Assembly: GCA_029907715.1 (NCBI GenBank)
Contig: JARYLI010000017.1
Span: forward strand, 1 to 35,467
Length of the DNA stretch: 35,467 nt
Reading direction: 5' to 3'
Source: Methanothrix sp.
GTDB lineage: Archaea; Halobacteriota; Methanosarcinia; Methanotrichales; Methanotrichaceae
Shown: positions 10,807 to 32,049 of the stretch, in pieces
Layout: each line of letters starts with the position of its first letter
Position numbering within the stretch: position 1 is the stretch's first letter
Translations under genes and position numbers: made by a program
Notes under the pieces: generated by a model
The model's database searches: none
What the model saw: the letters and a program-made list of their open reading frames with translations, nothing else
Told to the model about the DNA's origin: nothing

Positions 10807-11496
10807 GTGTCCTGCTTGGAGGTTGCAATCGCACTTGGGGTGGTTGTGGGTCTGCTGATATTCGCCTTGAAGGCCGGCATGGGATGCGGGCTTGCGCATC
10901 TCAGCTGGAGGGGGATCATGCTGTTTGCGTCTGGCTATCTGCTTGTGGCCACAGGTATGGGTCTCCTGATAGATCATCTGTCTATTGATATGATGGCAGG
11001 CGTGATCAGAGCAGGCGTGACGATGCACGCGATTCTTGCTCTCTGTCTCATCGCTCTCGGAATGCTCACGGTGAGAGAGTGGAGATGCTCTGGCAGGGAC
11101 ATGTCGCGCAAAACGTTCTGGGCGCTTTCGATCCCCTGTCCTGCATGCATGGCGGCGACGTTCCTCTCATGCAGCGTGCTCGCGGATCTCCTCAGCATCT
11201 CCCCTGCGAGAATCGGCGCAGCTGTGGGCATCATCCTCTTCGTGACAATCTCCTCGGTCTCACTGCTTCTGAGAAGGCTTCAGGGTGGTCCTGGCATCAT
11301 GGGGAACGTGATGATGCTCCTGGGGGGATTTTACATCATCTCGATAATGCTCCTGCCGTCGTACATCCAGATGCATGAGGTGACAGTGAGATTCGCAGCA
11401 CCCGAGATGCATTCTGAGCTGGTTCCCGCTTATCTGATATTGATCATGCTGATCTCCCTGGGATACGTCATCCGGAAGAAAGGTGTGACGGTATGA
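10807..11496 (+). CDS. DUF2162-type predicted membrane transporter
   Basis: 229 residues with about seven membrane helices. The start is GTG at 10807 (a TTG three codons later is an alternative). A Cys pair in a membrane segment (SIPCPACMAATFLSCSVL) and an early GMGCGLA motif could bind a metal or act as a redox pair; both are seen directly. The pattern and context match the DUF2162 transporter family of methanogens, which I recall next to ExbB/MotA-like and DUF2149 genes. Its stop overlaps the next start by 4 bp (ATGA), so the genes form one operon. The substrate is unknown. The convergent CobN-like gene suggests a metal or corrinoid, which is inference. Confidence 0.7.
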   Translation: MSCLEVAIALGVVVGLLIFALKAGMGCGLAHLSWRGIMLFASGYLLVATGMGLLIDHLSIDMMAGVIRAGVTMHAILALCLIALGMLTVREWRCSGRDMSRKTFWALSIPCPACMAATFLSCSVLADLLSISPARIGAAVGIILFVTISSVSLLLRRLQGGPGIMGNVMMLLGGFYIISIMLLPSYIQMHEVTVRFAAPEMHSELVPAYLILIMLISLGYVIRKKGVTV

Positions 11497-12140
11497 TCTA
11501 CGAGACAGCTGTCAGCCTTCTCTACGTCTTCTCCACATCTCTGCTCTATCCCGATATAATCGGCCTGCTTGTTCTGTTCGGCTGGTCGCTCATCCTGCTG
11601 GGGTCCCTGATCCAGGAGTACACATCCAGGAGGAGAGATATCGGGGAGCTGGAGGAGATCACGCTCAGGGCAGCCTCACTTGCAAACTCCGGGATGTCGA
11701 AGGAGGCCGCCGAGGTCCTCAGGGGGTACAGATCCCCGCAGCTCTCCGGTGTTCTCATGGAGATGGCGGGCTCCCTGGAGGGAAGCATGCTTCACATCAG
11801 GCTCGACAAGATCCTCCAGGATGCTGAGCTGGACCTCGCCAGGAGGCTCGAGCCTCTGCGCATCGGTCTCAGGGTCGGCCCGATACTTGGGCTGATGGGC
11901 ACACTGATACCAATGGGCCCAGCGCTCGTGAGCCTCTCGAAAGGTGATGTGCAGTCCATGGCGGCGAGCCTGATAATAGCGTTTGCAACGACTGTGATAG
12001 GACTGGTCGTTGGCGGGATATGCTACTGTTCTCTTCTGATCAGAAACAGATGGTACCATCAGGACCTGAGCGATGTGGAATACGCTGCTGATATACTGAG
12101 GAGGGCCATGAATGAGAGACCGGACGGGCGTTCTGGATGA
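11493..12140 (+). CDS. MotA/TolQ/ExbB-family proton channel protein
   Basis: 215 residues. One helix lies near residues 20-40 and a pair near 128-150 and 158-182, with a long cytoplasmic loop between (GELEEITLRAASLA...). The diagnostic segment is LRVGPILGLMGTLIPMGPALVSLSKGD followed by AFATTVIGLVVGGICY, as in ExbB/TolQ. Such proteins form pentamers that couple proton flow to work on a partner. Archaea have no outer membrane or TonB receptors, so the work must be done at the single membrane or on a surface protein. It is coupled to the preceding gene (4-bp overlap) and overlaps the following one by 29 nt. Confidence 0.88.
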   Translation: MIYETAVSLLYVFSTSLLYPDIIGLLVLFGWSLILLGSLIQEYTSRRRDIGELEEITLRAASLANSGMSKEAAEVLRGYRSPQLSGVLMEMAGSLEGSMLHIRLDKILQDAELDLARRLEPLRIGLRVGPILGLMGTLIPMGPALVSLSKGDVQSMAASLIIAFATTVIGLVVGGICYCSLLIRNRWYHQDLSDVEYAADILRRAMNERPDGRSG

Positions 12141-12456
12141 GATCGACGGGGACCCGATGGAGGGCGTCGCAAACCTCTTCGATGTCGCGATGGTCTTCGC
12201 CGTGGCGCTTCTGCTCGCGCTCGTCACTGCTTACAACATCTCAGAGCTTCTCGATCCCACATCCAGCGTCACCGTCGTTAAGAACCCGGGCGAGCCGGAC
12301 ATGCAGATAATAATCAAGAACATGAGCAGCATTCAGATCCTGAACATGACAGAGCAGCTGGGTGGGGGGCAGGGAATCCGCATAGGCACAGCATACCGCC
12401 TGAAGAGCGGCCAGGTGATATACGTGCCGGAGAATGAGACGCCACCAGCTGCTTGA
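12112..12456 (+). CDS. DUF2149-type single-span protein, ExbD-like partner
   Basis: 114 residues. A short cytoplasmic start (MRDRTGVLDEIDGDPMEGVANLFDVAMVF) leads into one helix (about 23-43) and an extracellular domain ending in GIRIGTAYRLKSGQVIYVPE. This size and layout, one N-terminal helix and a small outer domain, is that of ExbD/TolR, and the sequence matches DUF2149, a methanogen family found beside ExbB homologues. ExbD needs an Asp in the helix; here Asp residues (D14, D24) lie before or at its edge, so the proton path may differ. It overlaps the ExbB gene by 29 nt, which suggests fixed stoichiometry. Confidence 0.75.
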   Translation: MRDRTGVLDEIDGDPMEGVANLFDVAMVFAVALLLALVTAYNISELLDPTSSVTVVKNPGEPDMQIIIKNMSSIQILNMTEQLGGGQGIRIGTAYRLKSGQVIYVPENETPPAA

Positions 12457-12505
12457 TCTAGAGACGGATTGCGTATCGTTAGCTCACTGCCGTACGGCAT
12501 TAAAA

Positions 12506-12527
12506 CCACCGGCACATATCCCGGTGG
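12506..12527 (+). promoter_or_regulatory. Hairpin between the DUF2149 and MBL genes
   Basis: CCACCGG and CCGGTGG form a perfect 7-bp stem with an 8-nt loop. It sits 50 nt after the DUF2149 stop and about 40 nt before the MBL start. It could mark the 3' end of one message, attenuate the next, or be an operator. No U-tract follows. Confidence 0.4.
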
Positions 12528-12567
12528 GGATATCAGTGATGTGGATCAAGGAGCAGGAGGTGATCGA

Positions 12568-13302
12568 ATGGACGTTACCCTTCTCGGCACAGGCGCAGGA
12601 ATACCGCAGGCAGACCGTGCGCAGGCATCGATTCTCCTTCATGACGAGGATCTGCTGCTCATCGACTGCGGTGCGGGCGCTCTTTTCAGACTGGGCGAGC
12701 TCGGCCTAAGCCCACTGGAGATCGAGACAGTGCTTCTGACACATCTGCATCTTGATCATGTGTCAGATCTCCTTCCGCTTGCAAAGGCGCGGTACCTTCT
12801 CGGCGAGCCGTGGCTCAAGGTCTTCGGACCTGCCGGCACGGATCAGCTGGTCAGATCCCTGCACTCTCTGTACCCTTATCTGCAATCGATAAAGCTGGAG
12901 GTCACCGAGATCGGGGCGGGATGCAGATTTGAGATATGTGGGCTCGACGTGCGGACCGTATCCGCAGTCCACAGCGTGCCAGCGCTCTGCTACAGGATCG
13001 AGGGCTCATCGACAGTCGCATGCTCCGGGGACACAGAGCCGAGCGCAGGTGTCTCTGAGCTTGCAGCCGGATCCGACCTGCTCGTCCACGAGTGCTCGTT
13101 TCCGGATGGATTTGATGTGACGAACCACACCACCCCCACACCACTCGGCCGGATCGTGAGAGATGTCGGGGAGATCGTGCTCACACACTTCTATCCCCAC
13201 TGCAGAGGTCTTGAGGATGAGATGGCGCGCACGGTGGAGGGGATCTCCGGGATCAGGACCAGAGCAGGAAGGGATCTGATGGGCCTGAAGATGTCTGGAT
13301 GA
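12568..13302 (+). CDS. MBL-fold metallohydrolase, RNase Z-like
   Basis: 244 residues from the ATG at 12568, which has one of the best ribosome binding sites in the window (GGAGGTGATC, spacing about 4). The metallo-beta-lactamase motif THLHLDHVSDL gives H-x-H-x-D-H. Further ligands are in AVHSVPALCYRIEG, ACSGDTEPS and LVHECSFPDG, with a last His in LTHFYPH. The GTGAG-x-P start and overall layout match the RNase Z/arylsulfatase-like subgroup. The exosite arm of true tRNase Z is not evident, so 3' tRNA processing is possible but unproven. It is 112 bp after DUF2149 on the same strand and may be a separate unit. It is convergent with the CobN-like gene. Confidence 0.8.
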   Translation: MDVTLLGTGAGIPQADRAQASILLHDEDLLLIDCGAGALFRLGELGLSPLEIETVLLTHLHLDHVSDLLPLAKARYLLGEPWLKVFGPAGTDQLVRSLHSLYPYLQSIKLEVTEIGAGCRFEICGLDVRTVSAVHSVPALCYRIEGSSTVACSGDTEPSAGVSELAAGSDLLVHECSFPDGFDVTNHTTPTPLGRIVRDVGEIVLTHFYPHCRGLEDEMARTVEGISGIRTRAGRDLMGLKMSG

Positions 13303-13456: not shown

Positions 13457-16400
13457 CTACTCCCTCCTCCACATCCCAGCTGCCACCAGCAGGAGCACGA
13501 ATAGCACGAGTGCCATCCCGAAGAGTGGCGCTCCTGATACAGAGGGAGTTGCTGCAGCAGTGACATTCTCCATCACGTATCCCCTCACGTCCACGGTCTC
13601 TGTTTCAGACTTTTTCTCCATCTCAGACCCGACACCCTGGGGGAGAGTGCTGTTGTACGGATGCCTGGAGCGCGAGGAGCTTCCAGACCTCACAGGCTGA
13701 GCTGCCGGAGATCCCTCCGCGGGAACGGAAAGCATCCCGCTCATGTACTCGTTCAGGAGAAGATTGCCGCATGTGTGGTGGCAGCACGCAACCCCGTAAT
13801 CATCGACAAGATCCCTGTACCGCTCTGCGAGATCCTCCAGGACCTCGGGCGATGGGTGCCATCTCTCCTTTCTTGCAGTCTCTAAAAGCCTCGCGTCCAT
13901 CACCTGCGCTGCCCATGGGTTGTTCTTCCTGAAGAAATCCTGCAGCCCCAGGTTGTATTTGTCCTCCACATAGATGTCGTGGACCTCGTTCCATGTGTTC
14001 TCGCTCACAAGCTCTGGCACCGTCGCCTCCCATCCCCACAGGTACTCGACGAACCTGTCCATCTCCCTCGCCCCGGAGTACCCCTGCTCCATCATCCCCT
14101 GGATCCACCGGGGGTTGTAGTACCTCGTCCTCAACTCCTTTGAGAAGAACTCTCCGAGCTCATGGATCCTTTCCTTCCTGGGATCCCTCACGTCTGTCAC
14201 GTACATCTCAGGGGTGGATCCGGTCACGGTTCTTACAGCGAGAGCTATTCCGCCAAGATACTGGAAGACATCATCGTTATCGATGAATCCGTAGAGGTTT
14301 GAGTTCGTGTGATGGACAGCTGCATCAACTCCTCCAAGATTCGCGCTGTAGACCTCCATCTGCTGCTCTGCTGACAGAGATCTGCCCGAATCAAACCTCC
14401 CTCCCCAGATACCGTCGCCGTAGATGCAGGACATCCTGGATATGAAGAGCCTGCCGAGCTCTGAATCGTTCTCCCATCTGTCGCTTGCAGATATTGGTGC
14501 GTCGAGGTTGGGGCCGTATGTGCCTGCAGCCTCGAGGAATATCCTGGATCTCGAGAGAAACTCCGCATCCTCTGCGGTGCAGTTTCCAGCCTGGAGAAGC
14601 ATATCTCTCAGCATCTCAGAGTTCTCCCTGATGTAATTCGGGTACGCTGTGTCTGTATCGTTCGCAGCGAGCCGTATCGCCTTATCGATGAGAACCAGTT
14701 TCTCCGGGAAGAGATCCCTGTAGAGGCCGGATGGGACCACAAGGACATCTATCCTGGGCCTGCCAAGTTCCGATAATGGTATCAGCGCGACATCGCTCAC
14801 TCCGCCGTATGCATCATAAACAGGCCTGGCACCTATGAGCTGGAGTATCTCAGAGTCGACCACTCCATGATCTGTCATCGCCCAGGCCCAGAGGACGACC
14901 GCGATCTTTCTCGGGTATGTGCCGTTGTGCTTCATCCTGTACTCCTCAATGAGACCCTCCGCGAGCTTCCTTCCGACCTCCCATGCGGCAGGCGTCGGAA
15001 CCCTCCTCGGATCCACGGACCTGAAGTTCCTGCCTGTCGGGAGCACCTGCGGATCCCTTATCGGATCATCAGCTGGCGATGGGGGTATGTAGCCACCTCT
15101 CAGGGCGTTAGTCGTGTTCGTGAGCTCATTCCCACAGCTCCTCAAACCCTCTGCGTACATTTTCGAGAGGTTCAGGATCTCCGTCAGGTTGGAACTGATC
15201 TTTCCGAGGATAAACTCCTGAGCTGACTCTGGAGAGGAGCCGTTTATCAGGACCTCGTACAGGAGAGATGATGATACGTTTTCGATCCCATCCTCGGTGG
15301 AAGTGTTGATCGTCCTCTCAATCTCCTCAATGTAAGAATCACCGAGCATCGACCGCACCATGGATACGAGAGAATCATTCTCGTAGGGCTGGCCGAACGT
15401 GTGCAGCCCGTAGGGCATGAACGAGCTCTTAAGCTCCTCCAGGTAGTCCTCCAGCTCTGGCAGGAATGCCTCGAACGCCTCTGGTTCATCAAGGGCGCTC
15501 AGGTTCTCGCCCAGGTCCTCATCAAGGTGAAGGTCTCTGCATGTTTCCAGTATCTTCCTCCTGTACTCCTCCTTCACGCTCTCGTTGAGCACGTTCCTGT
15601 ACTCGTATATGCTCTCCTTCAGATCCGAAAGGTTGCCGTAGAGGCCTGCAGCCACTATTGGCGGAGTGAGGTGAGAGATCATCACAGCATCCCCGCGCCG
15701 CTTTGCCTGCGTGCCCTCTGCGATGTTGTCCACGATGTAAGGGTAAACAACAGGAATGTCCTGAACGAGGAGCGCTGGCCAGTCGTTCCAGCCAACAACC
15801 CCCTCTCTGCCCGGAAGCCACTCCTGGGTGCCGTGCTTTCCCAGGTGAATGATGGCATCCGCGCCGAATCCGTGCTTCAGCCAGAGGTAGAACGCTATGT
15901 ACTGATGGTGTGGAGGCACATCTGTGGAGTGGTAAAGAACCGTGCTGTTCTCAAGCCATCCCCGGCTCGGCTGTGGCAGCAGGATCACATTCCCGAAGGA
16001 GAGCTTCGGTATTACCAAGTATGAGCCGCTGGAGTTGCTGAAGACCATGATCTTCCCAGGGGGAGGACCCCAGTGATTGATGACCACATTCTGCAGATCT
16101 GCTGGAAGCTCCCTGAACCAGCTGATGTACAGATCCGCTGGAATCAGTGTGGCGTTTCCGGCCGCGACCATTGCGTCCAGCTCTCCAGGGGCCCATGTGC
16201 CCACGTTCGTTCCCTGGTGTGCCAGGAGATCGACCAGGACCTTCTCATCAGGGACATCTCCCTCGATCCTGTAACCCATGCCCTTCATGTGCTCCAGGAT
16301 GTTCCTGAGACTCCGGGGGACGTTGAGGTAGCACCCCTCTATGTTGTCCTTGCCGCCGCCGTGGTTGTAGTAGATTATGGCGACCCTCTTCTCAGAGTTG

Positions 16401-18898
16401 GGCTTTTGCAGCCTGATCTGCGCCATTGCACGATCTGCGATCCTCTCTACCTCAGGCTCTATGGAGGAGTACACGGTATCGTTCTTGCCCGAGATCGCGA
16501 TGGGATCGAAGATACCATCCATCTCAGGTAGCGCGACCTGGAAGTAGAGCTCCAGGGGGTTGATGCTGGAGTTGGTCCATTCCATGGGTGACTGGTAGTA
16601 GAGCCGCATTCCGCGAAGCACCGGCACGTTCAGCGACTCCAGGATCTCCACCCCTCTCTCAGGGTCCCCGTAGCTCAGGCGGAACGGCTTTGTGACGACA
16701 GCAAGATCGATAAGAGTGGTGTTGTTCAGAACAAAGAACCTCTCGAGGGAGGATGCATTCGAGAAGCCTATGCATATGACATTCGCACCCCTCCTCTCGA
16801 ATGCTCTGATGAGATCGATCCTGTCTGGCTGGCCCAAATCGCCATAGTAGCTCGCGATTCCAACTGTTGGAGCGCTGCTGTTGTACCGGTACCACTCCAT
16901 GTAAGATGTTGTGTTCTCGAAGAGATCCGGAGCGTCAGGGTGGTAGATGTACTCCCTTGGCGCAGGGACTGGCGCCTCAACCCCCACATCCACGCCGCAG
17001 AAATGCGCTGCGAGATACCCGATGAGCCTCCGCATGTTCTCCACCCCACCGTACTCCCAGTACATCTCGATATCTGGATGAGCGCTCATGTTCACGCTCG
17101 CAAGATGCTGGTATCCTGGTGAGTTCAGGAGCACCACCGGCACGCCCCGTTTCCTCGGCTCATCGAGAAGTCTCTCAAGCAACGACGCAGAATCGCCACC
17201 GATCATCTCCAGAAAGATCAGGCTGTACCCGGAGAGGTTCATCCCGGGATCCAGCATGTCAGGCGATATCAGCGTTATGTTCAGCGGCGCCCCCTTCATC
17301 GCCTCACGGATGGATGGCTGCTGGCCGACTGTGACGAAGAGCGCATCTGGTTTGTGCATCCTGGCGGTGATCTCGATCCTGGGACAATCCTCTGGCCTGG
17401 AGTTCCTCTCCCCGTAGTAGAAAACCAGACGATCTCCGTCGTTCAGCATCAGAGACTCCGGTCCGGTTATAGGCACAGGCTCATCGGGATAGTTGACCCA
17501 GTACCTCCAGGATATCTCTTTGCTGGAAACAAAATCGCCTATCGACTCGACCGTCAATCCGTAGATGCTGATAAGGGAATCGTTCACGCTGACGTTTATT
17601 CCAGTGGATGATGCAGATGATATCAGCGCTCCAAGTGCGCTTTTCATGCTGATGCTGTAAGTGGCATTGCTCGTTGCAGTCACATTCATGCTTTTGTTCT
17701 CAAGCAGGACCTCACCACTCCAGAGCAGATCTTTCTGCAGGGAGCTGAACGCGTAGAGCCTTCCATCATCGGCTCCTATGAAAAGGATCCCATCAGATGC
17801 AGATGGCGAGGACATGATGTACTCGTTAACAGGGTATGTCCAGACGACCGATCCGTCGGATGCGTTCAGGGCGTAAACCGCTCCTGCATCGGTGTTTGTC
17901 CCAAAATAGATCCTGCCGTCCAGGAAGAGCGGCGACGATTTCACAGGACCGTTGACCTCTGTCTCCCAGATCAGGGAGCCGTTTTCGTCGAGGCAGATCA
18001 CACGTTTATCATCAGTTCCCACATAAATGCGACCGGATGCGATCGCAGGAGTGGATTGCGTGCCGTTGATGCTTCTCTGCCACAGAGCATGACCGGTGGT
18101 GGCGTTCAGTGCTGTGATGGATCTCTCCGTCACAAAGAAGACCGTGTTGTTCCAGATTGCAGGGCTTGAGGTGATGGCTGCATCTGCAGGAGCTTTCCAC
18201 ATGATCTCCTGCGTGGAGGCGCTGACGCAGTAGAGAGCCGGATCTCCTCCAGGGAAATAGATCATCTTTCCAGATACGGCAGGGGATGCGAAAGGCGAGA
18301 TGGATCCCGTCGAGAGATTCCAGAGCTCATCGCCATCCAGGTTCAACGCATGGAGCGCGCCATCAGAGAAGCTCATGATGTAGAGCGTATTGTTTTCGAT
18401 GAGGGGGGATGAGGCGACGCCCCAGTACATCGGGTCTCTCTCTATTGTTCTGTTCCAGAGAGTCTTGCCGGTAAGAGCATCAACGCAGTAAACCTCGCCT
18501 GTCAGCGAGCCCGTGAAGACCCTCTCACCAAACACCGCTGGTGTCGATGCCCCGCCCTTTCCGCCTATGGGATTTATCCAGAGGACAGTCCCGTTTCTCT
18601 CATCGATGCATGCAAGCCCCAGCTCTCCCCTGAACGTCATGTCAGGCCAGTTCGAGACGAAGATCCTGCCAGCTGAGATCGAAGCTGATCCAGCAATGTA
18701 TCCATGTCCTGTTAGGCTCGTGCTCCACAGAATATCAGGTGAATCAGGACCTGGACCGCTCAGATTGCCGGTCCTCTGGTTATCACCGTGGAATGTCACA
18801 AAGTCAGCGCTCGCCTGCAGAATAAGCGATGAGAACAGGAATAGACCTACAAACCAGATGCGCCATGCTTGCAGGTCTCTGATGCATTTATGTGCCAT
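13457..18898 (-). CDS. Cell-surface CobN-like chelatase with PQQ propeller and transcobalamin-like domain
   Basis: 1813 residues from the ATG at 18898, chosen for its strong GGAGGTGG site 4 nt upstream; an in-frame start at 18937 would spoil the signal peptide. A signal peptide spans about 11-31 (cut after ASA). Residues ~35-395 hold PQQ-type blades (GTVLW, GKTLWNR, GSLIWET, DGSVVWTY). Residues ~400-500 resemble DUF4430/transcobalamin C-terminal domains (ISWRYWVNYPDEPVP, LNDGDRLVFYYGE). A full CobN/BchH core follows (HHQYIAFYLWLKHGF; HLGKHGTQEWLPG near 1018; a CCHHTC cluster near the end). A Ser-rich linker and one C-terminal helix before WRRE complete it. Dozens of N-x-S/T sequons support an outside location. 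CobN inserts Co into a corrin using ATP from CobST; outside the cell there is no ATP, so the role must differ (corrinoid, F430 or metal capture). Convergent with the ExbB-like operon. Confidence 0.88.
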   Translation of the reverse strand: MAHKCIRDLQAWRIWFVGLFLFSSLILQASADFVTFHGDNQRTGNLSGPGPDSPDILWSTSLTGHGYIAGSASISAGRIFVSNWPDMTFRGELGLACIDERNGTVLWINPIGGKGGASTPAVFGERVFTGSLTGEVYCVDALTGKTLWNRTIERDPMYWGVASSPLIENNTLYIMSFSDGALHALNLDGDELWNLSTGSISPFASPAVSGKMIYFPGGDPALYCVSASTQEIMWKAPADAAITSSPAIWNNTVFFVTERSITALNATTGHALWQRSINGTQSTPAIASGRIYVGTDDKRVICLDENGSLIWETEVNGPVKSSPLFLDGRIYFGTNTDAGAVYALNASDGSVVWTYPVNEYIMSSPSASDGILFIGADDGRLYAFSSLQKDLLWSGEVLLENKSMNVTATSNATYSISMKSALGALISSASSTGINVSVNDSLISIYGLTVESIGDFVSSKEISWRYWVNYPDEPVPITGPESLMLNDGDRLVFYYGERNSRPEDCPRIEITARMHKPDALFVTVGQQPSIREAMKGAPLNITLISPDMLDPGMNLSGYSLIFLEMIGGDSASLLERLLDEPRKRGVPVVLLNSPGYQHLASVNMSAHPDIEMYWEYGGVENMRRLIGYLAAHFCGVDVGVEAPVPAPREYIYHPDAPDLFENTTSYMEWYRYNSSAPTVGIASYYGDLGQPDRIDLIRAFERRGANVICIGFSNASSLERFFVLNNTTLIDLAVVTKPFRLSYGDPERGVEILESLNVPVLRGMRLYYQSPMEWTNSSINPLELYFQVALPEMDGIFDPIAISGKNDTVYSSIEPEVERIADRAMAQIRLQKPNSEKRVAIIYYNHGGGKDNIEGCYLNVPRSLRNILEHMKGMGYRIEGDVPDEKVLVDLLAHQGTNVGTWAPGELDAMVAAGNATLIPADLYISWFRELPADLQNVVINHWGPPPGKIMVFSNSSGSYLVIPKLSFGNVILLPQPSRGWLENSTVLYHSTDVPPHHQYIAFYLWLKHGFGADAIIHLGKHGTQEWLPGREGVVGWNDWPALLVQDIPVVYPYIVDNIAEGTQAKRRGDAVMISHLTPPIVAAGLYGNLSDLKESIYEYRNVLNESVKEEYRRKILETCRDLHLDEDLGENLSALDEPEAFEAFLPELEDYLEELKSSFMPYGLHTFGQPYENDSLVSMVRSMLGDSYIEEIERTINTSTEDGIENVSSSLLYEVLINGSSPESAQEFILGKISSNLTEILNLSKMYAEGLRSCGNELTNTTNALRGGYIPPSPADDPIRDPQVLPTGRNFRSVDPRRVPTPAAWEVGRKLAEGLIEEYRMKHNGTYPRKIAVVLWAWAMTDHGVVDSEILQLIGARPVYDAYGGVSDVALIPLSELGRPRIDVLVVPSGLYRDLFPEKLVLIDKAIRLAANDTDTAYPNYIRENSEMLRDMLLQAGNCTAEDAEFLSRSRIFLEAAGTYGPNLDAPISASDRWENDSELGRLFISRMSCIYGDGIWGGRFDSGRSLSAEQQMEVYSANLGGVDAAVHHTNSNLYGFIDNDDVFQYLGGIALAVRTVTGSTPEMYVTDVRDPRKERIHELGEFFSKELRTRYYNPRWIQGMMEQGYSGAREMDRFVEYLWGWEATVPELVSENTWNEVHDIYVEDKYNLGLQDFFRKNNPWAAQVMDARLLETARKERWHPSPEVLEDLAERYRDLVDDYGVACCHHTCGNLLLNEYMSGMLSVPAEGSPAAQPVRSGSSSRSRHPYNSTLPQGVGSEMEKKSETETVDVRGYVMENVTAAATPSVSGAPLFGMALVLFVLLLVAAGMWRRE

Positions 18899-19253
18899 TA
18901 TCCACCTCCAGCCTCCTTCAGGCAATGGGACCCTCATTTATGCATATTCTCTTTAGTTATGTTCTGGTCATTTGAGTAAATTAATTTGATTTTACTTAAA
19001 ATTTTTGTTCTTGGGTTACGGGTGCCGGGGCACTCACATTCCAGTGGTCTGGGGCACGCATCACCGAATACAGGAATCGGCACTCACTGACACATGGGTG
19101 ACGGATCCTGCGAGATCGCATCCTGATGACTGATACCGCAGAATCAATGACAGAATCTCAGTTCAGCAGCGCATGCCTTGGATCCTGCGATCTCGTTGGT
19201 CTCAGTCGCCTCCTGCAGAAAGGAATATTAAAGATGCATCCTCACTTTGCCTC
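18899..19253. promoter_or_regulatory. Divergent intergenic region between the CobN-like and leuD/hacB genes
   Basis: 355 bp with no gene seen. It should hold both promoters. For the CobN-like gene, GCATAAATG (minus strand) lies near 18937-18945, and an AT-rich block covers 18965-19010. An 11-bp direct repeat GGATCCTGCGA occurs at 19103-19113 and 19180-19190, and the first copy is half of a bulged hairpin with TCGCATCC. I looked for a cobalamin riboswitch because of the neighbour but could not identify its conserved core. Confidence 0.4.
19223..19232 (+). promoter_or_regulatory. TATA box of the leuD/hacB operon
   Basis: GAATATTAAA is centred about 27 nt before the ATG at 19254. This predicts a leaderless transcript, in keeping with the lack of a ribosome binding site. 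Confidence 0.55.
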
Positions 19254-19739
19254 ATGATCAGGGGCAGGGCATGGGTCTTCGGGGATGATGTTGATACAGA
19301 TGTCATAATTCCAGGAAAGTACCTCAGGACGAGGGACCTGCGCGAGCTTGCGGAGCACGTAATGGAGGGCCTGGACCCGTCGTTCCCGTCCAGGGTTCAG
19401 CCGGGAGATGTCATAGTGGCTGGCAAGAACTTCGGATGTGGCTCTTCCAGGGAGCAAGCCCCTCTCGCCCTGAAGCTCGCAGGAATATCCTGCATTGTTG
19501 CAAGATCTTTCGCCAGGATATTTTACAGGAACGCCATAAACATCGGTCTTCCACTCATGGAAGCTGACGTCAGGTGTGAGACGGGGGAGATCGTGGAGGT
19601 TGATCTTTCCAGTGGAAAGGTCACTATCAGTGGCAGGGAGTACACCGGCAGAAAGCTCCCGGACTTTCTGATGGAGATACTGAACGATGGTGGGCTTGTG
19701 GCCCACAGGAGAAAGCAGAGGGAGCGTGGTCTGATTTGA
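19254..19739 (+). CDS. leuD: 3-isopropylmalate dehydratase / homoaconitase small subunit
   Basis: 161 residues from the ATG at 19254; 27 upstream in-frame residues are not family-like. [23 protein letters not shown] and the [18 protein letters not shown] stretch are the swivel-domain hallmarks of the LeuD family. The specificity loop reads Y23-L-R25-T26. In M. jannaschii the YLRT loop, with its Arg, marks homoaconitase (HacB, coenzyme B pathway), while isopropylmalate isomerase has YLV-type loops. I therefore favour HacB, though general annotation would call it LeuD. The large subunit is not in the window. It leads a three-gene operon, with a 4-bp overlap to the next gene. Confidence 0.88.
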
Positions 19740-20566
19740 TATTCCCTGAGGACTACAAGCAGATAGGCATCTCCAGAGAGCCCAGGCATGGCGATCCTGT
19801 GTACTTTGCCACAAGATACCTGATATCATATGAGGGGAGCAGCATATGCATTTACAGGATCGAGAGCGATGGCGAGGGGTTCATGAGAAGGGCATCTCAC
19901 ATCGAGATGATCTCCAGTGGCGACGAGATCGTGGAGTATCCGGAGATTGTGAACACAAGAAATCGGGCTCATCTCATAAGACTGGCGATGGATCTCTGCA
20001 GGGGCAGAGTCAATACAGTCATCTTCAGGGGTCCGGATGAGCATGTGACCTTCGTTCACGATCCTGATCCTGGAGCGATAATGGAAATAGAGATCCTTGA
20101 TGTCCAGCCCCCTGAGCCGCCGTGGCTTGTTTACGTCATAGAGAGGCTCGAGGAGTGCGGCGTCATAGGTGATCTGACGATGGGCTTCAAACCCAGGATT
20201 CTAGATCTCAGGAGCTTCAAGGGGGAGGATGTCTACTTTCCGTGCAGGGCATCAGGGCTTGGAAGATCCCTCGATGCGGACAGGGTCACAGCTCCTGTGC
20301 CTGAGATAGTGGGATGCGAGATATCCAGAGAGATCTTCAGAGCGGTCTACGGGGAGAGAAAGCACAGGTTCACCAACATATGCCCTGTGAGCGGAGACCT
20401 TCTGGTACCAGCTGGCCCATTCATCACAAGATGCTGCAGATCCGAGAGGAAAGGGCTGATCAGAATGCATGGGCATCCTGGGGTCGTGGTCCACTGGGGT
20501 GACGGGCCGCATCAGATCGAGCAGGCTCTGAGGATGCTGGCCGAATCGATCAGGAGCGGGAGATGA
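19736..20566 (+). CDS. Conserved-looking protein of unknown function in the coenzyme B-type operon
   Basis: 276 residues. The start is TTG at 19736, overlapping the LeuD stop by 4 bp (TTGA). Its stop overlaps the next ATG by 4 bp (ATGA). I do not recognise the family. It is a soluble, mixed alpha/beta protein with no signal or membrane segment. It contains several Cys and His in the C-terminal third ([45 protein letters not shown]), which could form a metal site. Sandwiched translationally between a LeuD/HacB and a LeuB/AksF homologue, it probably acts in or regulates the same 2-oxoacid elongation pathway. Confidence 0.75.
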
Positions 20567-21534
20567 AGCGAGTCGCTCTGGTGCCTGGAGACGGCATCGG
20601 TCCTGAGGTCATATCGAGCGCGGTTCGCGTCCTGAGGGAAGCCGGATTCGATGGGGAGTTCGTGGAATTCGATATAGGCTACGGCAGATGGAGTCGCGAT
20701 GGAAAGGCCATAACAGATGATGATATTGAGGGGATGAAGGAGTGCGACTGCACACTCTTCGGTGCCATCACAACTCCGCCTGATCCCGATTACAGGAGCG
20801 TCCTGATAAGGATAAGAAAAGAGCTTGACCTGTATGCGAACATAAGGCCCCTCCGATCGAGCAGGATCGATGCCATCATTGTGAGGGAGAACACTGAAGG
20901 CCTCTATTCGGGTCTGGAGGTGCTTGGCGATGAGGAGGCCAGGACAGTGCGGGTCATAACGAGACGGGGAAGCCAGAGGATCGCTGAGGTGGCATGCAGG
21001 ATCGCATCGGATCGGAGGCACCTCACAATAATACACAAGGCGAACGTCCTCAAGAGCGATGTCTTGTTTTTGAGGACATGCAGGGAGGTCGCTGAAAGGT
21101 ACGGAATCAGGTATGACGAGATGCTTGTTGATGCTGCGGCATACAATCTGGTCGTCAGGCCCGAGAGGTTCGACGTTATGGTGACGACAAACCTCTTTGG
21201 GGACATTCTCAGCGATGAGGGCGCAGGCATTGTCGGCAGCCTGGGGCTCTGCGCCAGCGCGAATTTGGGTGACCGCTGGGCGCTCTTCGAGCCGATACAC
21301 GGGAGCGCGCCGGACATCGCGGGGAAGGGCATAGCAAATCCTGTGGGAGCGATACGGAGCGCTGCAATGATGCTCGAGTGGTTCGGCGAAAAAGGCATGG
21401 CGCAGCTGATCGAGCATGCGGTTGACAGCGCTCTCTCAAAAGGCCTGAAAACCCCTGATCTCGGCGGATCCTGCACGACATCCGGGTTCACAGACGCAGT
21501 CATCGACGAGATGAAGCGCACAGCAGCAGGTTGA
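20563..21534 (+). CDS. Isopropylmalate/homoisocitrate dehydrogenase family (LeuB/AksF)
   Basis: 323 residues, a typical archaeal LeuB/AksF length. It starts VALVPGDGIGPEV. The active-site motifs are LDLYANIRPLRS, VRENTEGLYSG, KANVLKSD, TTNLFGDILSDEGAG and FEPIHGSAPDIAGKGIANPVGAI. It carries out oxidative decarboxylation of a malate-type substrate with NAD(P). The window sequence alone cannot tell 3-isopropylmalate (leucine) from homoisocitrate (coenzyme B side chain). Pairing with a YLRT-type small subunit favours AksF, as inference. It is the last gene of the operon, with a 4-bp overlap upstream and a repeat-rich spacer downstream. Confidence 0.88.
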   Translation: MKRVALVPGDGIGPEVISSAVRVLREAGFDGEFVEFDIGYGRWSRDGKAITDDDIEGMKECDCTLFGAITTPPDPDYRSVLIRIRKELDLYANIRPLRSSRIDAIIVRENTEGLYSGLEVLGDEEARTVRVITRRGSQRIAEVACRIASDRRHLTIIHKANVLKSDVLFLRTCREVAERYGIRYDEMLVDAAAYNLVVRPERFDVMVTTNLFGDILSDEGAGIVGSLGLCASANLGDRWALFEPIHGSAPDIAGKGIANPVGAIRSAAMMLEWFGEKGMAQLIEHAVDSALSKGLKTPDLGGSCTTSGFTDAVIDEMKRTAAG

Positions 21535-21993: not shown

Positions 21994-22146
21994 TGGGCAG
22001 ATTTACCTGAGCAGTTCTGCAACACTACTTATAAAATAAATTTGCAAACTTTCATACAAATCTAATTAAATTATACTCTTACCAGAAATACTTATATTTG
22101 ATACGTATCTGAATTATGTATCAAAGATATGGGTGGGGTGGTGCAA

Positions 22147-25095
22147 ATGGATCCTGGAAGATGCGTTCTTCTTCTCGCTGTGCTCATCTTGATGCCCACA
22201 GCATGTGCGATATCCGTGAGCTATGGCTCCAGCGGTTATGGTGGATCTGTGACGCTCTCTGAGAGCTACGAGCTGGACACCTCCACGTCTCTTTCCGAGG
22301 CGACAAGCCTGGGCCAGGGATCTGTAGAGCAGACGAAGAGCGCCTCCGGAACGGGAAACAATCGCATCTCCACATCCATATCATCAAAGGGGTACAGTGC
22401 TGGCAGCAGCATCGAGAGCACATCATCTCTCTCCCTGTCCAGCGCTGTTGCAGGGGATGGCAGTGGAGCGGGCATCTCGCAGGCCCTATCTGCCTCGGGC
22501 TCTGTATCATCCTCACTGAATGGCGTCAGCGGTGATCTTGAGGCCATGCACAGTGCAGGTGTGGAGTCCGGGTTTCTCTCATCAGCTCAGAGCATTGGCG
22601 TGGGAAATGACGTCTCAGCAATGGAGAGCACCCAGATCGCTGGCATGAACGGATACGTCTCTGCTGGATTCTCAAGTAAAGATGGGTCCGGGGAGGTGGC
22701 ATCCACAGTCTACGAGGGGGCAATCTTCGGCACCCTCGGATCAGGCAGCTCTGCTGTCTATGGAGATCTCGCCCTTAACGGCCCTGGAAGCCTGACTGCA
22801 TCCGCATCTGATCTGGGGAGCAGCAGCAAGCATGAGATCCTTATGGAGGATGAGGGGGGTGATGCTGATGAAAGAGCATCAACGATGCTCCTGGCGGCCA
22901 CCGGCGGATATGCTCTATCAGGTGCATCCCTGAGCGCAACCGGAGACAGGGTGAGCCTCTGCTCGGTCATATCCAACCCTAAGGGAAGCCTGGTCACAAA
23001 GGAGGTGCAGAGCGGGGTCTCGAAGCCTATGAGCTCCCAGTCGATTGGCATCGCCTCAGGAAACAGCGTGACCACAACCTGGAGCAGATCCGGAAGGGGC
23101 AAGATGTCTCCGATCTCATCCACATACAGAAGCACAGATGGAACGAAATCCGTGTCGAACAGCGTGAGCGGCTCAGGGTATCCGTACAGCATAGCAGGCT
23201 CTGCCACATACGGCGAGAGCAGCGCTGCGATGTACCAGACTCTGAGCAACACGAACGGAGCGCTCACAACATCCCAGAGCGCATGGTCCAGGAGCAACGG
23301 TGAGGAGCTCATAGCAACCAGCTCTCTGAAATCCTCAGGCACGATCTCAGGCACCCAGATCGCCATCTCTGATCCTGTTAAGGTCATAAGCTCGCAGTCG
23401 CTCACAGTGACAGGCACAGCAACAGTCTCATCATCCTCCAGAGCTAGCTCGAACGGCGACAGCTCCTCTGCATCAGCGAGCGTAAGTGGCGCAAGCAAGA
23501 TGTCGCTGACAGCGCTCGCCGATGCATCGAACACCAGGTACAACAACGAGCTATACCACAGAACTGGAGCGCTTGTGGACACCTCAGGATATGCGAAATC
23601 GATAAAGTCTGACAGTTCAGCATCATATCTCAACAACTTCGCAAGATCCCACGGCGAGTGGACCAAGGCCGGATCAGGAGAGCTCACGGTCAGCGCTGAG
23701 ACCGTGAAGAGCGCGGTCTCGGATGTGGAGATGAAGACTGGAAGCGATGCCGCATTATCATACACTCAGTCGGGCACAGGATCGAGTGTGAAGAGCGGCC
23801 TGTACACATACGCGGCCAAGAGATCAGGCGGTGATGTTTACCTTTACCAGAGCCACCTGTACTCGCATGCGTATCCGAAGAACGACCACCACTCCATGGA
23901 CGAGTATGTATCCACAGCGTCCTCTGCCATATCAGCGAAGAAGTCAGACATGAAGATACAGCAGTGGGAGAACGGCAGGTGGGTGACAGCAAAGAACTAC
24001 TACAGCTCAGGGAGCTACACAGCCGCGGTGAGAGCAAATGATATTTTGACATCCGAATACAAATGGGATCGGCTCTGGGAGGTGCAGCCGAGAAGCAAGA
24101 CGCCATACGACAGGGTGCCGTGGGGTGTGGAGTACATGTACAGCAGCTCCTCGCTCTCAAAGACATACGGCGGCGAGGGTATAGATGTTGCGATAATAGA
24201 TACAGGCGCTGACACGCTTCACCCTGACCTGCTCATGAGGATCGAGGACTTCGCAGATGCATACGGTCCGGGCGAGTACACACAGTCAGATCCACATGGC
24301 CATGGAACCCATGTGGCGGGCACGATAGTTGCTGATGGCGGATTCGATGGGAAGGGTATCTACGGGATGGCGCCAGAGGCCGACCTCAGGGTCTACAGCA
24401 CGAACTTCTACCATAGCGATGTCGCCAGCGGGATATACAGGGCCACCGATCTCGGAGCCGAGATAATATCGATGTCACTCGGTGGCTCGGTGGAGTCCAG
24501 CACTCTCAACAGAGCTCTTGATTACTCAATGGCGAATGGTGTGCTGGTTGTAGCTGCAGCCGGAAATGGCCTCCCGAACAACCCAACGATGGCAACGCCA
24601 GCCCGCTACCCCGGCGTCGTCGGCGTCGGCGCCATAGACAGCTCAGGAAATGCGATATGGTGGTCCTCACCCGGCTCGAACGACGGCGATTACATTCCAG
24701 AGGGCAACGAGGTAACCTTCGGAGCGCCGGGAGTGAGCGTTTACTCGACGTACCCGATATACTGGGGATACTACACAACGATGAGCGGCACGAGCATGGC
24801 GACCCCACACATCGCAGGGACCGCTGCAAGCCTGTGGTCGAGGTACCTGATCTACGGAGACGGGGCGAACGATATCAAGAATATGATGATGAACTACGCG
24901 AAGCAGAACGATGTCACAACCGTGAAGGTCACTCCTGAGTCGGTGTTGTACAGAAGCTATGCAGAGCAGTACTTGAACTCAGGATACTACAGCAGTATAT
25001 ACCCGTATATGGACGGCTCGAAGACATATTATCTGAATATGCTCCAGGGCGATGATGTTCTCACAGGTGTGGGGGTTCCAAGAATAAAGCTGTAG
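22147..25095 (+). CDS. Secreted subtilisin-family (S8) serine protease with long Ser-rich N-terminal region
   Basis: 982 residues from the ATG at 22147, preferred over 22129 because GGGTGGTG precedes it and the signal peptide (LLLAVLILMPTACA) then starts cleanly. Residues ~25-640 are a low-complexity, Ser/Gly/Ala/Thr-rich region with loose repeats of S-x-S-x-S patterns, probably an extended beta-rich pro-region or surface stalk. The catalytic domain follows: D685 in IIDTGADTLHPDL, H719 in HGHGTHVAG, S883 in GTSMATPHIAG, plus the oxyanion region AAAGNGLPNNP. No C-terminal anchor is seen. A TATA-like CTTATATTTG is at 22091-22100. It likely acts outside the cell in peptide supply or surface-protein processing. 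The peptide-type ABC transporter next to it, on the other strand, may import the products. Confidence 0.9.
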   Translation: MDPGRCVLLLAVLILMPTACAISVSYGSSGYGGSVTLSESYELDTSTSLSEATSLGQGSVEQTKSASGTGNNRISTSISSKGYSAGSSIESTSSLSLSSAVAGDGSGAGISQALSASGSVSSSLNGVSGDLEAMHSAGVESGFLSSAQSIGVGNDVSAMESTQIAGMNGYVSAGFSSKDGSGEVASTVYEGAIFGTLGSGSSAVYGDLALNGPGSLTASASDLGSSSKHEILMEDEGGDADERASTMLLAATGGYALSGASLSATGDRVSLCSVISNPKGSLVTKEVQSGVSKPMSSQSIGIASGNSVTTTWSRSGRGKMSPISSTYRSTDGTKSVSNSVSGSGYPYSIAGSATYGESSAAMYQTLSNTNGALTTSQSAWSRSNGEELIATSSLKSSGTISGTQIAISDPVKVISSQSLTVTGTATVSSSSRASSNGDSSSASASVSGASKMSLTALADASNTRYNNELYHRTGALVDTSGYAKSIKSDSSASYLNNFARSHGEWTKAGSGELTVSAETVKSAVSDVEMKTGSDAALSYTQSGTGSSVKSGLYTYAAKRSGGDVYLYQSHLYSHAYPKNDHHSMDEYVSTASSAISAKKSDMKIQQWENGRWVTAKNYYSSGSYTAAVRANDILTSEYKWDRLWEVQPRSKTPYDRVPWGVEYMYSSSSLSKTYGGEGIDVAIIDTGADTLHPDLLMRIEDFADAYGPGEYTQSDPHGHGTHVAGTIVADGGFDGKGIYGMAPEADLRVYSTNFYHSDVASGIYRATDLGAEIISMSLGGSVESSTLNRALDYSMANGVLVVAAAGNGLPNNPTMATPARYPGVVGVGAIDSSGNAIWWSSPGSNDGDYIPEGNEVTFGAPGVSVYSTYPIYWGYYTTMSGTSMATPHIAGTAASLWSRYLIYGDGANDIKNMMMNYAKQNDVTTVKVTPESVLYRSYAEQYLNSGYYSSIYPYMDGSKTYYLNMLQGDDVLTGVGVPRIKL

Positions 25096-25162: not shown

Positions 25163-26839
25163 CTACTGCTCTACAGCACGTTCTTCCATCACAGAGCTCA
25201 TGGCTGCGCATCTTACTAGCGATGCGGTGTACCGATGCGCAGGCTCTCTGATAACCTCGCCCGACGGCCCCTCCTCAACGATGCTCCCCCTGAGCATGAC
25301 CGCGATCCTGTCGCTCACCTTTCTCGCCAGGGCTATATCGTGGGTTATGAAAAGAATCGATAGACCCATACGCTCCTGCAGATCCATGAGCAGCCGCAGG
25401 ATCTTCGCCTGGACGCTCGGATCCAGCGCTGATGTGGGCTCATCCGCGATGAGCAGCTTTGGATGCATGACCAGAGCCCGCGCGATTGCGACACGCTGAG
25501 CCTCTCCGCCGCTGAGCTGATGCGGGTATTTTCTGAGAAACTCAGGATCTGTGGAGAGCTCGGCGCTCTCCAGAGCACCCATCGCGCTCGCGACCCTCTC
25601 CTCATCGCTTCCTATACTCTGCACGTCCAGAGGCTCCCTCACAGCCTGAAGCACATTCAGCCTGTGGCTTATCGACTCCTTCGGGTTCTGGAATATCATC
25701 TGGACCCGCCTGTAAAATCCGGCGTCCCATCTCGCCCTCTCCCCCTCAAGGAGTACCTCTCCTGAATCTGGCTCGATGAGACCCATGATGATCTTCGCAA
25801 GCGTTGTCTTTCCGGATCCGCTCTCTCCCACAAGCGCGAGCGTCTCGCCCTCGTACAGCGTGAGGCTGACATGTGATACCGCGGGAAAGCCGCTGAAAAA
25901 CTTGCACACATCCCTGATCTCCAGCAGCGGAACTATGCCGCCCCTGTGGCATGCGATCATCCTCCCGTTCGATCCTGCCAGCTTTGGCGCCTCCCTCTCA
26001 CAGATCTCTATCCTCTGTGTGCAGCGCGGGTGGAATGGACACCCGCCGATCCCGGTGATTGACCTCCCAGGTATCCCCTGGAGGTCCTTTGTTGTGTTCA
26101 TGCTTGGAAAGGATCTCATGAGACCTCTTGTGTACGGATGTCTGGGCTCTCTGATCAGATCGGCAGTCCTGCCCATCTCCATGATCATGCCTGAGTAGAG
26201 CACGGCCATTCTTTTGGATAGAGCCGATGCCAGCGATATGTCGTGTGTGATTATTATAGAAATGCGATCTGAGGTTGCGGATCTGAGAAGCTCCACGATA
26301 TCAGCCTTTGTGAGAGCGTCCAGCGAGGCTGTCGGCTCATCTAAGATCAGAAGGTCAGGATCGTTGGCGAGCGCCATTGCGATGAGAACCCGCTGCCTCT
26401 CCCCACCGCTCATCTGATGAGGATACAGCCGGTAACGCATCTCGTCGAGGCCCACTGCAGTGAGCAGTGCGCGTGCTCTCTCCCTTATGCGTGTTCTGCT
26501 CCATTTGTTGTGAGCTGCTATCGCCTCGCAGACCTGCTCCTCTGCGGTGTAAACCGGATCGAGCGCATCCTCAACGTTCTGGAAGACCATTGCCATCCTG
26601 TATCCGCGCAGACGCCTCATCTCCTCATCTGAGAGCTCCAGGAGATTCGTTCCATCGAAGACAATCTCACCCTCGAGCCTGGTGCCAGCGAGCCGCATTA
26701 TCGACAGGCCCAGCGTTGTCTTGCCCGCCCCGGACTCTCCGACGACCGCCAGAGAATCTCCCTTCTCAAGCATGAGATCTATACCTCTCAGAACCTCATG
26801 CTCTCCATACCTCGCTCTCAGTCCAGATATCTGAAGCAT
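25163..26839 (-). CDS. Peptide/nickel-type ABC transporter, fused double ATP-binding protein
   Basis: 558 residues from the ATG at 26839, which overlaps the permease stop by one base (TGATG) and has a GGAGG site; longer in-frame starts up to 26956 lie inside the permease gene. Two complete ATPase domains are fused. The first has GESGAGKTT, MSGGERQR and LLILDEPTASLD, then the Opp/Dpp tail HPYTRGLM and GCPFHPRC. The second has GESGSGKTT, LSGGEAQR and LLIADEPTSALD, then HRYTASLV. This is DppD plus DppF in one chain. It powers import through the two upstream-encoded permeases. Substrate may be oligopeptides or Ni/metallophore; the sequence does not decide. Confidence 0.9.
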   Translation of the reverse strand: MLQISGLRARYGEHEVLRGIDLMLEKGDSLAVVGESGAGKTTLGLSIMRLAGTRLEGEIVFDGTNLLELSDEEMRRLRGYRMAMVFQNVEDALDPVYTAEEQVCEAIAAHNKWSRTRIRERARALLTAVGLDEMRYRLYPHQMSGGERQRVLIAMALANDPDLLILDEPTASLDALTKADIVELLRSATSDRISIIITHDISLASALSKRMAVLYSGMIMEMGRTADLIREPRHPYTRGLMRSFPSMNTTKDLQGIPGRSITGIGGCPFHPRCTQRIEICEREAPKLAGSNGRMIACHRGGIVPLLEIRDVCKFFSGFPAVSHVSLTLYEGETLALVGESGSGKTTLAKIIMGLIEPDSGEVLLEGERARWDAGFYRRVQMIFQNPKESISHRLNVLQAVREPLDVQSIGSDEERVASAMGALESAELSTDPEFLRKYPHQLSGGEAQRVAIARALVMHPKLLIADEPTSALDPSVQAKILRLLMDLQERMGLSILFITHDIALARKVSDRIAVMLRGSIVEEGPSGEVIREPAHRYTASLVRCAAMSSVMEERAVEQ

Positions 26840-27672
26840 CAGGCATCCTCCTGCAGCCTCGGATCCATCGCCCTCTCGAGAGATGCGGCGATCAGGCTCA
26901 AACCGACAAGCGTTAACGAAAGCAGAACTCCCGCTGGAATCAACCACCACTTCCACACATCCAGATATGTGAAGGACATCGCCTGCTTCATCATCCTGCC
27001 CCAGCTCACCATCATCGGATCTGAGACACCAAGAAACGCCAGTCCCGCCTCCATGAGAACGGCGCGCCTGGCATCCTGTATCATTATGGCCACGAGGATC
27101 GGCCCCAGGTCCGGGACGATGTGTCTCAGGAGAATGTATCTCCTGGATGCCCCGAATGCTCGGGCCGCCACGACATGCAGCCTTTCCTGGAGGGAGAGCG
27201 TCTGCGATCTCACGATCCTCGCCCCTCCCGGCCAGCTGAAGAGGGAAATCAGGATTATCAGCAGTCCAAGACTTGGGCGGAGGTAAGCTGCCACAAGTAT
27301 CATCACGACCACTGATGGCAGAGATATTACAGCATCCACTGCCCTCATGCAGACCTTGTCATATGTGCCGCCAAGCATCGCTGCGCTGCCCCCGATGACC
27401 ACGCTGATCAGCGCCGAGAGAAGAGCCACGCCCACCGCGATCATCAGCGACGTTCTCGCTCCGTGGATCAGCTTTGCTGCTATATCCTGGCCGAGATCGT
27501 CTGTGCCGAGCAGATGCTCTCCCGACGGCGGGCTGAAGACCGGACCGATCTCCCTGTATGATGGAGCTATGAGAGGAGCGGATACTGCAAGGCCTGCGAT
27601 GATCGCCACTATTACCATCCCGAAAATTCCAGCCGGGCTGGATCTCATCTCCCTCCAGAGATCAACGTGCAT
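26839..27672 (-). CDS. ABC transporter permease, DppC/OppC type
   Basis: 277 residues with five to six helices. The N-terminal helix and the periplasmic-loop motif HLLGTDDLGQDIAAKLIHGARTS are typical of DppC/NikC. The ATPase-contact (EAA) loop is ERLHVVAARAFGASRRYILLRHIVP, followed by the usual AGLAFLGVSDPMMVSWGRM. It pairs with the upstream DppB-type permease, whose gene overlaps it by 11 bp, and with the downstream fused ATPase (1-bp overlap). Confidence 0.9.
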   Translation of the reverse strand: MHVDLWREMRSSPAGIFGMVIVAIIAGLAVSAPLIAPSYREIGPVFSPPSGEHLLGTDDLGQDIAAKLIHGARTSLMIAVGVALLSALISVVIGGSAAMLGGTYDKVCMRAVDAVISLPSVVVMILVAAYLRPSLGLLIILISLFSWPGGARIVRSQTLSLQERLHVVAARAFGASRRYILLRHIVPDLGPILVAIMIQDARRAVLMEAGLAFLGVSDPMMVSWGRMMKQAMSFTYLDVWKWWLIPAGVLLSLTLVGLSLIAASLERAMDPRLQEDA

Positions 27673-28630: not shown

Positions 28631-28817
28631 CTTGATGACTTCATCATACCTTCTTAGCAGGATGGGCATATTAATGGCCAAGCTATATTCACCTGATATG
28701 ACTCAATTCTATGATTAATATTTCATTTAAACTTATTATTACCATAATTGATATGGTATATGCTTTATATTACATGTATGAAATGAGTTACATGATTTAT
28801 TAATTTTATTGTGAAAA

Positions 28818-31799: not shown

Positions 31800-32049
31800 A
31801 TGCTACGATCGATTCAGATGCGTGTGTTGTCAGAGCGATGGAATACCTTGCCCAGGAACCTGGCAGGAGTCTGAGTGATCGTCTTTCACCGTTCGAGGAT
31901 GTTCTGATCCAGGACTCACCAAATAAGATGGTTTAAGGTCTTCGCCAGAGTTTATATACCTGCTTACATCCTGGTACCTGGCGAAAATCCACCACAATTC
32001 AGACCTGTCCGGCAAAAGATTTATGTAAAATAGACCCCTCATATGGGCT
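31800..32049 (+). promoter_or_regulatory. CRISPR leader with TATA box
   Basis: No credible gene. TTTATATA at 31951-31958 is a good TBP site and would start transcription near 31980, reading into the array. A second AT-rich stretch (GATTTATGTAAAATAG) lies at 32018-32033. Position upstream of perfect repeats, with the degenerate repeat at the other end, supports leader identity. Confidence 0.6.

Follow-up and report, generated by a model that had tools for sequence, protein, structure and literature searches.

The window analysed here is a stretch of 35,467 nucleotides from a Methanothrix sp. genome (GCA_029907715.1, contig JARYLI010000017.1) and carries a gene for a long, predicted membrane-anchored protein of the CobN chelatase family. 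The gene lies on the minus strand (13457–18937), where the longest open reading frame encodes 1826 amino acids, and its assignment rests on the frame itself, its translation, Pfam matches and a PDB sequence match to the heme de-chelatase HmuS (9d26). An alternative ATG at 18898 would yield a protein of 1813 residues; the closest ortholog (L079), itself of 1813 residues, begins at the matching position, and translation probably starts at 18898. The coordinates (13457–18898) and length (about 1813 residues) proposed in an earlier note on this DNA, which gave no strand, are confirmed. Such a frame is not a product of chance, being 1826 residues long with an N-terminal part of 516 residues that is 49–92% identical in 13 relatives.

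Facing the chelatase gene on the plus strand (10807–12456) are three genes with overlapping frames, here called T, U and V. T (10807–11496) encodes a DUF2162 membrane protein (PF09930, 198.6 bits) with GCG and PCPxC motifs that are invariant in the alignment, U (11493–12140) a homolog of HmuU of the MotA/TolQ/ExbB proton-channel type (PF01618, 35.8 bits, cut-off 22.9), and V (12112–12456) a homolog of HmuV, a DUF2149 protein with a single membrane helix (PF09919, 113 bits). A plus-strand gene of the metallo-beta-lactamase fold (12469–13302, Pfam) lies between V and the chelatase gene; its link to them is positional only, and it neighbours the locus elsewhere in the genus too. The window also contains a single run (19173–21534) of genes that are HacB/LeuD-like, DUF7714 (matching the XcbA family below cut-off) and homoisocitrate-dehydrogenase-like and may serve the synthesis of coenzyme B or M, a subtilase whose long N-terminal part is rich in serine (22129–25095), and an ABC transporter of the oligopeptide/nickel type in which a double ATPase is fused (25163–28681). 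At 32049–35467, extending towards the window end, lies a CRISPR array with 45 or more repeats (GTTGCAAGGCGAATCCCGATGAAAAGGGAACTGAAAG), which contains an internal duplication of 268 nucleotides (34062–34329 and 34363–34630).

The chelatase begins with a putative signal peptide (residues 14–44; 18806–18898, minus strand, as are all positions within this gene), in which a hydrophobic stretch precedes an A-x-A cleavage-type site (LQASA|DF), cleavage after ASA being predicted from hydropathy and ortholog alignment. There follows a BamB-type beta-propeller of eight blades (residues 69–398; 17744–18733), which matches PQQ_2 (PF13360) at 159 bits (cut-off 27.6). When residues 45–560 are modelled by AlphaFold on 14 orthologs (pLDDT 82), the eight-bladed propeller is followed by a small alpha/beta domain, and the best solved matches of the propeller in Foldseek include BamB and the designed propeller Cake8; the Foldseek list for the two domains modelled jointly was filled by propeller matches. 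The small domain coincides with a module resembling DUF4430, of the transcobalamin C-domain type (residues 404–527; 17357–17728), which is the weakest part of the architecture. A complete CobN/Mg-chelatase domain comes next (residues 626–1699; 13841–17062), with a PF02514 match of 1124 bits spanning positions 3–1089 of 1090, and by hydropathy the protein ends in one strong membrane helix, the presumed anchor (residues 1800–1822; 13472–13540), followed by WRRE. The earlier note had described a signal peptide, propeller, complete CobN core and C-terminal anchor in one chain, a description that hydropathy and the two Pfam scores bear out. It had also proposed profile searches and structure prediction as a check: PQQ and CobN lie above their cut-offs, the propeller is modelled with eight blades and the DUF4430 region folds confidently. 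Its DUF4430-like segment stands with a reservation, since the window protein itself scores 13.9 bits, under the Pfam cut-off of 23.8, while the corresponding segment in orthologous chelatases exceeds it (30.7, 26.0 and 25.4 bits). As the module is missing from several orthologs (L090, L092, L093 and L094), we regard it as optional.

Hydropathy, the density of N-glycosylation sequons (2.4 per 100 residues, against 0–0.6 in short CobNs) and the behaviour of relatives together indicate that the chelatase is probably extracytoplasmic and membrane-anchored. The earlier note had assumed that CobN/BchH relatives are cytoplasmic and ATP-driven, a premise now outdated. HmuS of Bacteroides is a membrane-bound heme de-chelatase of the CobN family that shares an operon with HmuT, HmuU and HmuV (PMC12583661), an operon annotated in Bacteroidota as hmuYRSTUV (PMC10434189), and HmuS of P. 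gingivalis, which carries membrane helices as well as a signal peptide, has been assigned to the periplasmic space (PMC13227078). Being membrane-bound, HmuS therefore provides a precedent for an extracytoplasmic relative of CobN. In 2025, archaea were said to lack complete hmu operons and the use of archaeal CobN homologs was called unclear (PMC12583661).

In a PDB sequence search the best solved relative of the chelatase is HmuS (9d26), which scores 564.6 bits where CobN of M. tuberculosis reaches 507 and ChlH 434. The catalytic His538 of HmuS, which sits in HFG(T/A)HG and whose replacement (H538A) leaves the enzyme inactive (PMC12583661), aligns with His1035 in HLGKHG (15833–15835). At the position of the second axial histidine of HmuS, His1209 in LSLDHxxEFMGG, the window protein has Asp1556 in IDNDDVFQYLGG (14270–14272), an aspartate that it shares with CobN of M. 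tuberculosis and with the homolog in Trichlorobacter. Both residues are retained in 53 of 58 anchored archaeal homologs and both are lost in three. The heme ligands Met79 and His254 of HmuS are not matched, the alignment placing Ile579 (beside Met578) and Pro751 at these positions, and the methionine-rich insertion of domain IV is absent, there being 55 residues between aligned blocks where HmuS has 218. Because several features specific to HmuS fail, the window protein belongs to the same anchored branch yet is not HmuS. Anchored paralogs without the catalytic histidine and aspartate (L088 1963–6480, L082 5859–10238 and L119 6561–10838) are perhaps binding-only proteins.

Given the conservation of His1035 and Asp1556, the window chelatase is probably an enzyme rather than a mere receptor, and for the same reason a pure receptor is not our first choice. 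The surface receptor or scavenger proposed in the earlier note thus survives in part: an anchored, extracytoplasmic protein engaged in metal-tetrapyrrole scavenging is the likeliest theme, and a mere receptor is unlikely. The alternative is a corrinoid scavenger without metal chemistry, in which the propeller, the DUF4430 module and the CobN cleft would bind cobamides and U and V would power their release to an ABC importer in the manner of TonB. DUF4430 occurs at the C-terminus of transcobalamin (PMC4350170), and operons in Methanotrichaceae additionally encode an alpha/alpha-toroid protein and one resembling DUF4430, which correspond to the two fold classes of transcobalamin. The Trichlorobacter lovleyi homolog is set between cobamide genes, both as published (PMC3403914) and in our cluster analysis, and three archaeal paralogs lack both catalytic residues. 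Retention of the pair in the 53 homologs nonetheless goes beyond a binder's need, several orthologs lack DUF4430, and a cobalamin-type importer was not seen among the window genes scanned; we consider a scavenger of this kind possible but doubtful, and prefer an enzyme.

The chelatase also departs from the biosynthetic CobNs, scoring 1182 bits against the NCBIfam CobN model (cut-off 1619) and falling under the cut-off of every CobN model, and Pfam revealed no CobS/CobT or ChlID AAA+ partner among the window genes scanned. A late cobalt insertion enzyme was not our first choice either, on account of the location and the missing AAA+ partner. Another rival is a surface chelatase that loads an external tetrapyrrole with a metal such as cobalt or nickel; in its favour CobN inserts cobalt and the active site here is of CobN type (Asp1556), not the bis-histidine site of HmuS. 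To our knowledge, however, no supply of metal-free tetrapyrrole exists outside the cell. Related bacterial systems, moreover, are iron- or zinc-starvation genes, which fits metal release (PMC10434189, PMC4542158), and insertion at the surface appears improbable.

The genome containing the window encodes two further, short CobNs. On contig C4, about 8.5 kb separate a short CobN of cytoplasmic type from the genome's sole ChlID-type AAA+/VWA protein (801.6 bits, above its cut-off), and the interval holds ABC importer genes of the iron/cobalamin type. Two wirings hence coexist in one genome, a short CobN near ChlID and a surface gene with T-U-V, and because the former is present we read the window gene as a surface counterpart and not as a misplaced biosynthetic enzyme. 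A relic biosynthetic CobN, functionless outside the cell, would be in keeping with a genome whose short CobNs and ChlID make it superfluous for biosynthesis, but the frame is intact, its residues are conserved and it co-occurs strongly with V in different families, all of which renders this hardly credible. Short cytoplasmic CobNs with an HmuS-like second histidine (DLDHYFEFFGG), of which one is in the same genome (L121 7967–11698, contig C7) and others are at L123, L130 and L131, are possible intracellular de-chelatases by this motif; the L121 gene adjoins an iron/cobalamin-type binding protein.

Comparison by hhalign with the hmu operon on a Bacteroides finegoldii plasmid relates U to HmuU (E=2e-31) and V to HmuV (E=4e-32). 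U further matches E. coli ExbB along its length (E=2.7e-4), and its pore threonines Thr137, Thr166 and Thr167 are invariant (34/34). V has an aspartate, Asp24 in NLFDxAMVF, at the start of its membrane helix that is invariant in 39 of 39 sequences. ExbD, TolR and MotB each have a membrane aspartate; V (DUF2149) gives no sequence match to solved ExbD, and its assignment as a stator component follows from the invariant membrane aspartate and the pairing with U. A homology between T and HmuT was rejected, their comparison giving a probability of 1.6%. The AlphaFold model of T (pLDDT 78.6) has no significant fold match in the PDB (best E 0.25), and searching with the profile of T likewise gave no meaningful match. 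In Runella the T position is taken by a protein with weak similarity, below cut-off, to DsbD/NicO; from this and the cysteine motifs, T may have a DsbD- or NicO-like role. Besides GCG and the PCPxC cysteines, Lys22, His74 and Asp98 are invariant in T (10807–11496), which hints at membrane thiol or metal chemistry. A helix-turn-helix regulator, ArsR-like by eye, is found near T, upstream, in 13 loci (L109, L112, L113, L114, L115 and others). In the literature searched, DUF2162 is not named and DUF2149 is mentioned rarely, and the search returned no expression or proteome data for the archaeal chelatase or T-U-V genes.

The association of the chelatase with V was assessed in 61 genomes, comprising the genome containing the window and others of the same genus, family and class. 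V and T are each present in 45. A CobN frame of at least 1400 amino acids occurs in 42 of the 45 genomes with V, the remaining three carrying only CobN pieces at contig edges, and in none of the 16 without V. One genome without V (G004) has a contig-edge CobN piece and may be an exception, and another (G027) has a frame of 1395 amino acids with a partial domain. Across the 61 genomes the co-occurrence is significant by a Fisher test that ignores relatedness (p=5e-12), and within one genus (g2) the chelatase and V are jointly present or absent (p=0.014). Short CobNs (about 1160–1330 amino acids) are found both with and without V. Sampled across the phylum, V is present in 93 of 295 genomes; its bearers include Methanothrix, Methanosarcina, Methanolobus, Methanococcoides, Methanohalophilus, Methanoculleus, Methanofollis and ANME groups. 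The genes are arranged on one strand as chelatase-T-U-V in several Methanotrichaceae and as T-U-V-chelatase in Methanosarcinaceae. Another genome of the genus (G002) has some 285 kb between its chelatase gene and T-U-V, which counts against the reading that we prefer. Tandem arrays of several anchored chelatases (1425–2284 amino acids), with varied N-terminal lengths, stand behind a single T-U-V at L111, L119, L098, L115, L114 and L118.

Among bacteria, plasmid records yielded U/V-linked anchored CobNs from Trichlorobacter, Bacteroides, Prevotella, Aureibacter, Runella, Azospirillum, Comamonadaceae, Diaphorobacter and Pseudoalteromonas; a Paracoccus DUF2149 match without an annotated CobN nearby was left out of the comparison. 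Save for a few uncertain starts or contig ends, U/V-linked CobNs of archaea and bacteria alike begin with a hydrophobic stretch and end in an anchor, features that cytoplasmic CobN and BchH lack. In an unrooted tree of the CobN core (994 columns, LG+C20 PMSF, quick search), one branch with SH-aLRT support of 100 separates all 36 anchored U/V-linked proteins, HmuS included, from all 14 cytoplasmic CobN/BchH proteins, and an earlier tree on longer sequences gives the same split.

No TonB was found in the 61 genomes, nor any ExbD match above cut-off. This group of archaea lacks an outer membrane, so that, with TonB absent too, its U and V cannot serve a TonB-dependent receptor. In Trichlorobacter lovleyi a separate ExbB-ExbD-TonB set adjoins T-U-V-CobN. 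On these grounds U and V most likely serve the chelatase. The last 36 residues of chelatase paralogs from the same genome are 70% identical, against 43% for the core, while chelatases from different genera show 39% in the tail and 42% in the core; all 12 genomes compared show an excess of tail identity (Wilcoxon p=0.0005), a further one, in which the second protein ends at a contig edge, having been excluded. This accords with U and V acting on the chelatase, but the tail may be shared either because it docks to a common partner or through gene conversion within tandem arrays. The earlier note had rightly observed that there is no ATP outside the cell, but overlooked a candidate answer to the puzzle, namely that the ExbB-like and DUF2149 proteins form a stator-like pair using the proton gradient; it is because of the lack of external ATP that we propose this source of energy. 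In vitro, purified HmuS works with NADH in the absence of HmuUV (PMC12583661), and hence U and V may not be needed for catalysis. That U and V constitute a proton-driven chelatase motor throughout the anchored branch, HmuS included, replacing outside the cell the AAA+ motor of ChlI/ChlD or CobS/CobT, is accordingly a proposal we advance tentatively, as one with somewhat less than an even chance of being correct.

Clues to the substrate conflict. Besides the cobamide context described above, FeoB and an iron-type DtxR regulator lie downstream of the chelatase gene in two genera, the Azospirillum set is accompanied by iron transport genes, and HmuS, the known member of the branch, acts on heme, which likewise points to iron. 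The Runella set lies among hydrogenase/nickel (hyp) genes, and that of P. aeruginosa belongs to the Zur regulon, implicating zinc (PMC4542158, PMC9431628). The simplest reading of these contexts is a single machine used for different metals. A Methanotrichaceae operon at L080 and L094 (about 1.3–15 kb) encodes two PQQ proteins, the chelatase, T, U, V, a DUF4430-like protein and a squalene-cyclase-type toroid, a set reminiscent of transcobalamin with its two domains.

Taken together, we think it reasonably likely that the window protein is a CobN-superfamily protein of the cell surface, belonging to the HmuS branch, which acts with a dedicated T-U-V membrane complex as a metal-tetrapyrrole chelatase or de-chelatase, plausibly driven by the proton gradient through U and V. 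For the window protein, release of metal from a tetrapyrrole ranks first, with a corrinoid, heme or F430 as candidate substrates. The propeller and DUF4430 module would be outermost, holding the tetrapyrrole or its carrier, and the CobN body would handle the tetrapyrrole metal, with His1035 and Asp1556 opposed in the cleft; removal of the metal for uptake is the most likely direction. U, together with the membrane aspartate of V, would convert the proton gradient into motion, which could reach the chelatase via its C-terminal membrane helix in place of an AAA+ motor, and T may be a metal permease or a path for reductant.

The chelatase-U-V core is present in a wide range of methanogens and methane-oxidising relatives, where it is fused to surface modules and sometimes forms tandem arrays within a genome. 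Our analysis suggests that methanogens strip metals from tetrapyrrole cofactors outside the cell, and if metal release is indeed the function it would offer them a route to iron, cobalt or nickel from external cofactors. A proton-driven motor, if real, would change the current view of HmuU and HmuV as energising an outer-membrane heme receptor, and the archaeal case makes the role of these proteins in gut and oral bacteria testable.

Of the systems already known, HmuS is the closest, and what is new here is the archaeal membership of the anchored, U/V-linked branch and the surface modules added to it. The window protein shares with HmuS the CobN fold, signal peptide, C-terminal membrane anchor, catalytic histidine and homologous U and V, and the HmuS-like gene order S-T-U-V recurs in several Methanotrichaceae; it differs in its second axial residue, in lacking the Met79/His254 ligands and methionine-rich insertion, in its propeller and DUF4430 module, in a T (DUF2162) that is not detectably related to HmuT, and in the want of outer-membrane components. 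With class I CobN, which works with CobS and CobT, it has in common the full CobN domain and the HLGKHG and DDxxQYxGG motifs, but it is extracytoplasmic as judged from sequence, has no AAA+ partner at the locus and does not reach the NCBIfam CobN cut-offs. U and V resemble the ExbB-ExbD and MotA-MotB stators in that U matches ExbB/TolQ with its pore threonines and V keeps one membrane aspartate, although there is no TonB and V is not recognisable as ExbD from sequence. The pGLOV01 cluster of Trichlorobacter lovleyi has the Methanosarcinaceae order (DUF2162-ExbB-DUF2149-CobN) and an anchored CobN with the LDNDDFFQYLGG motif of many archaeal members, but is bacterial, lies beside TonB-dependent receptors and cobamide genes, and has neither propeller nor DUF4430. 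Finally, PA1922–PA1925 of P. aeruginosa, compared here by published description, likewise bring together CobN-like, ExbB/ExbD-type and DUF2149 genes within the Zur regulon (PMC9431628, PMC4542158), but are regulated by zinc starvation and have no reported DUF2162 gene.
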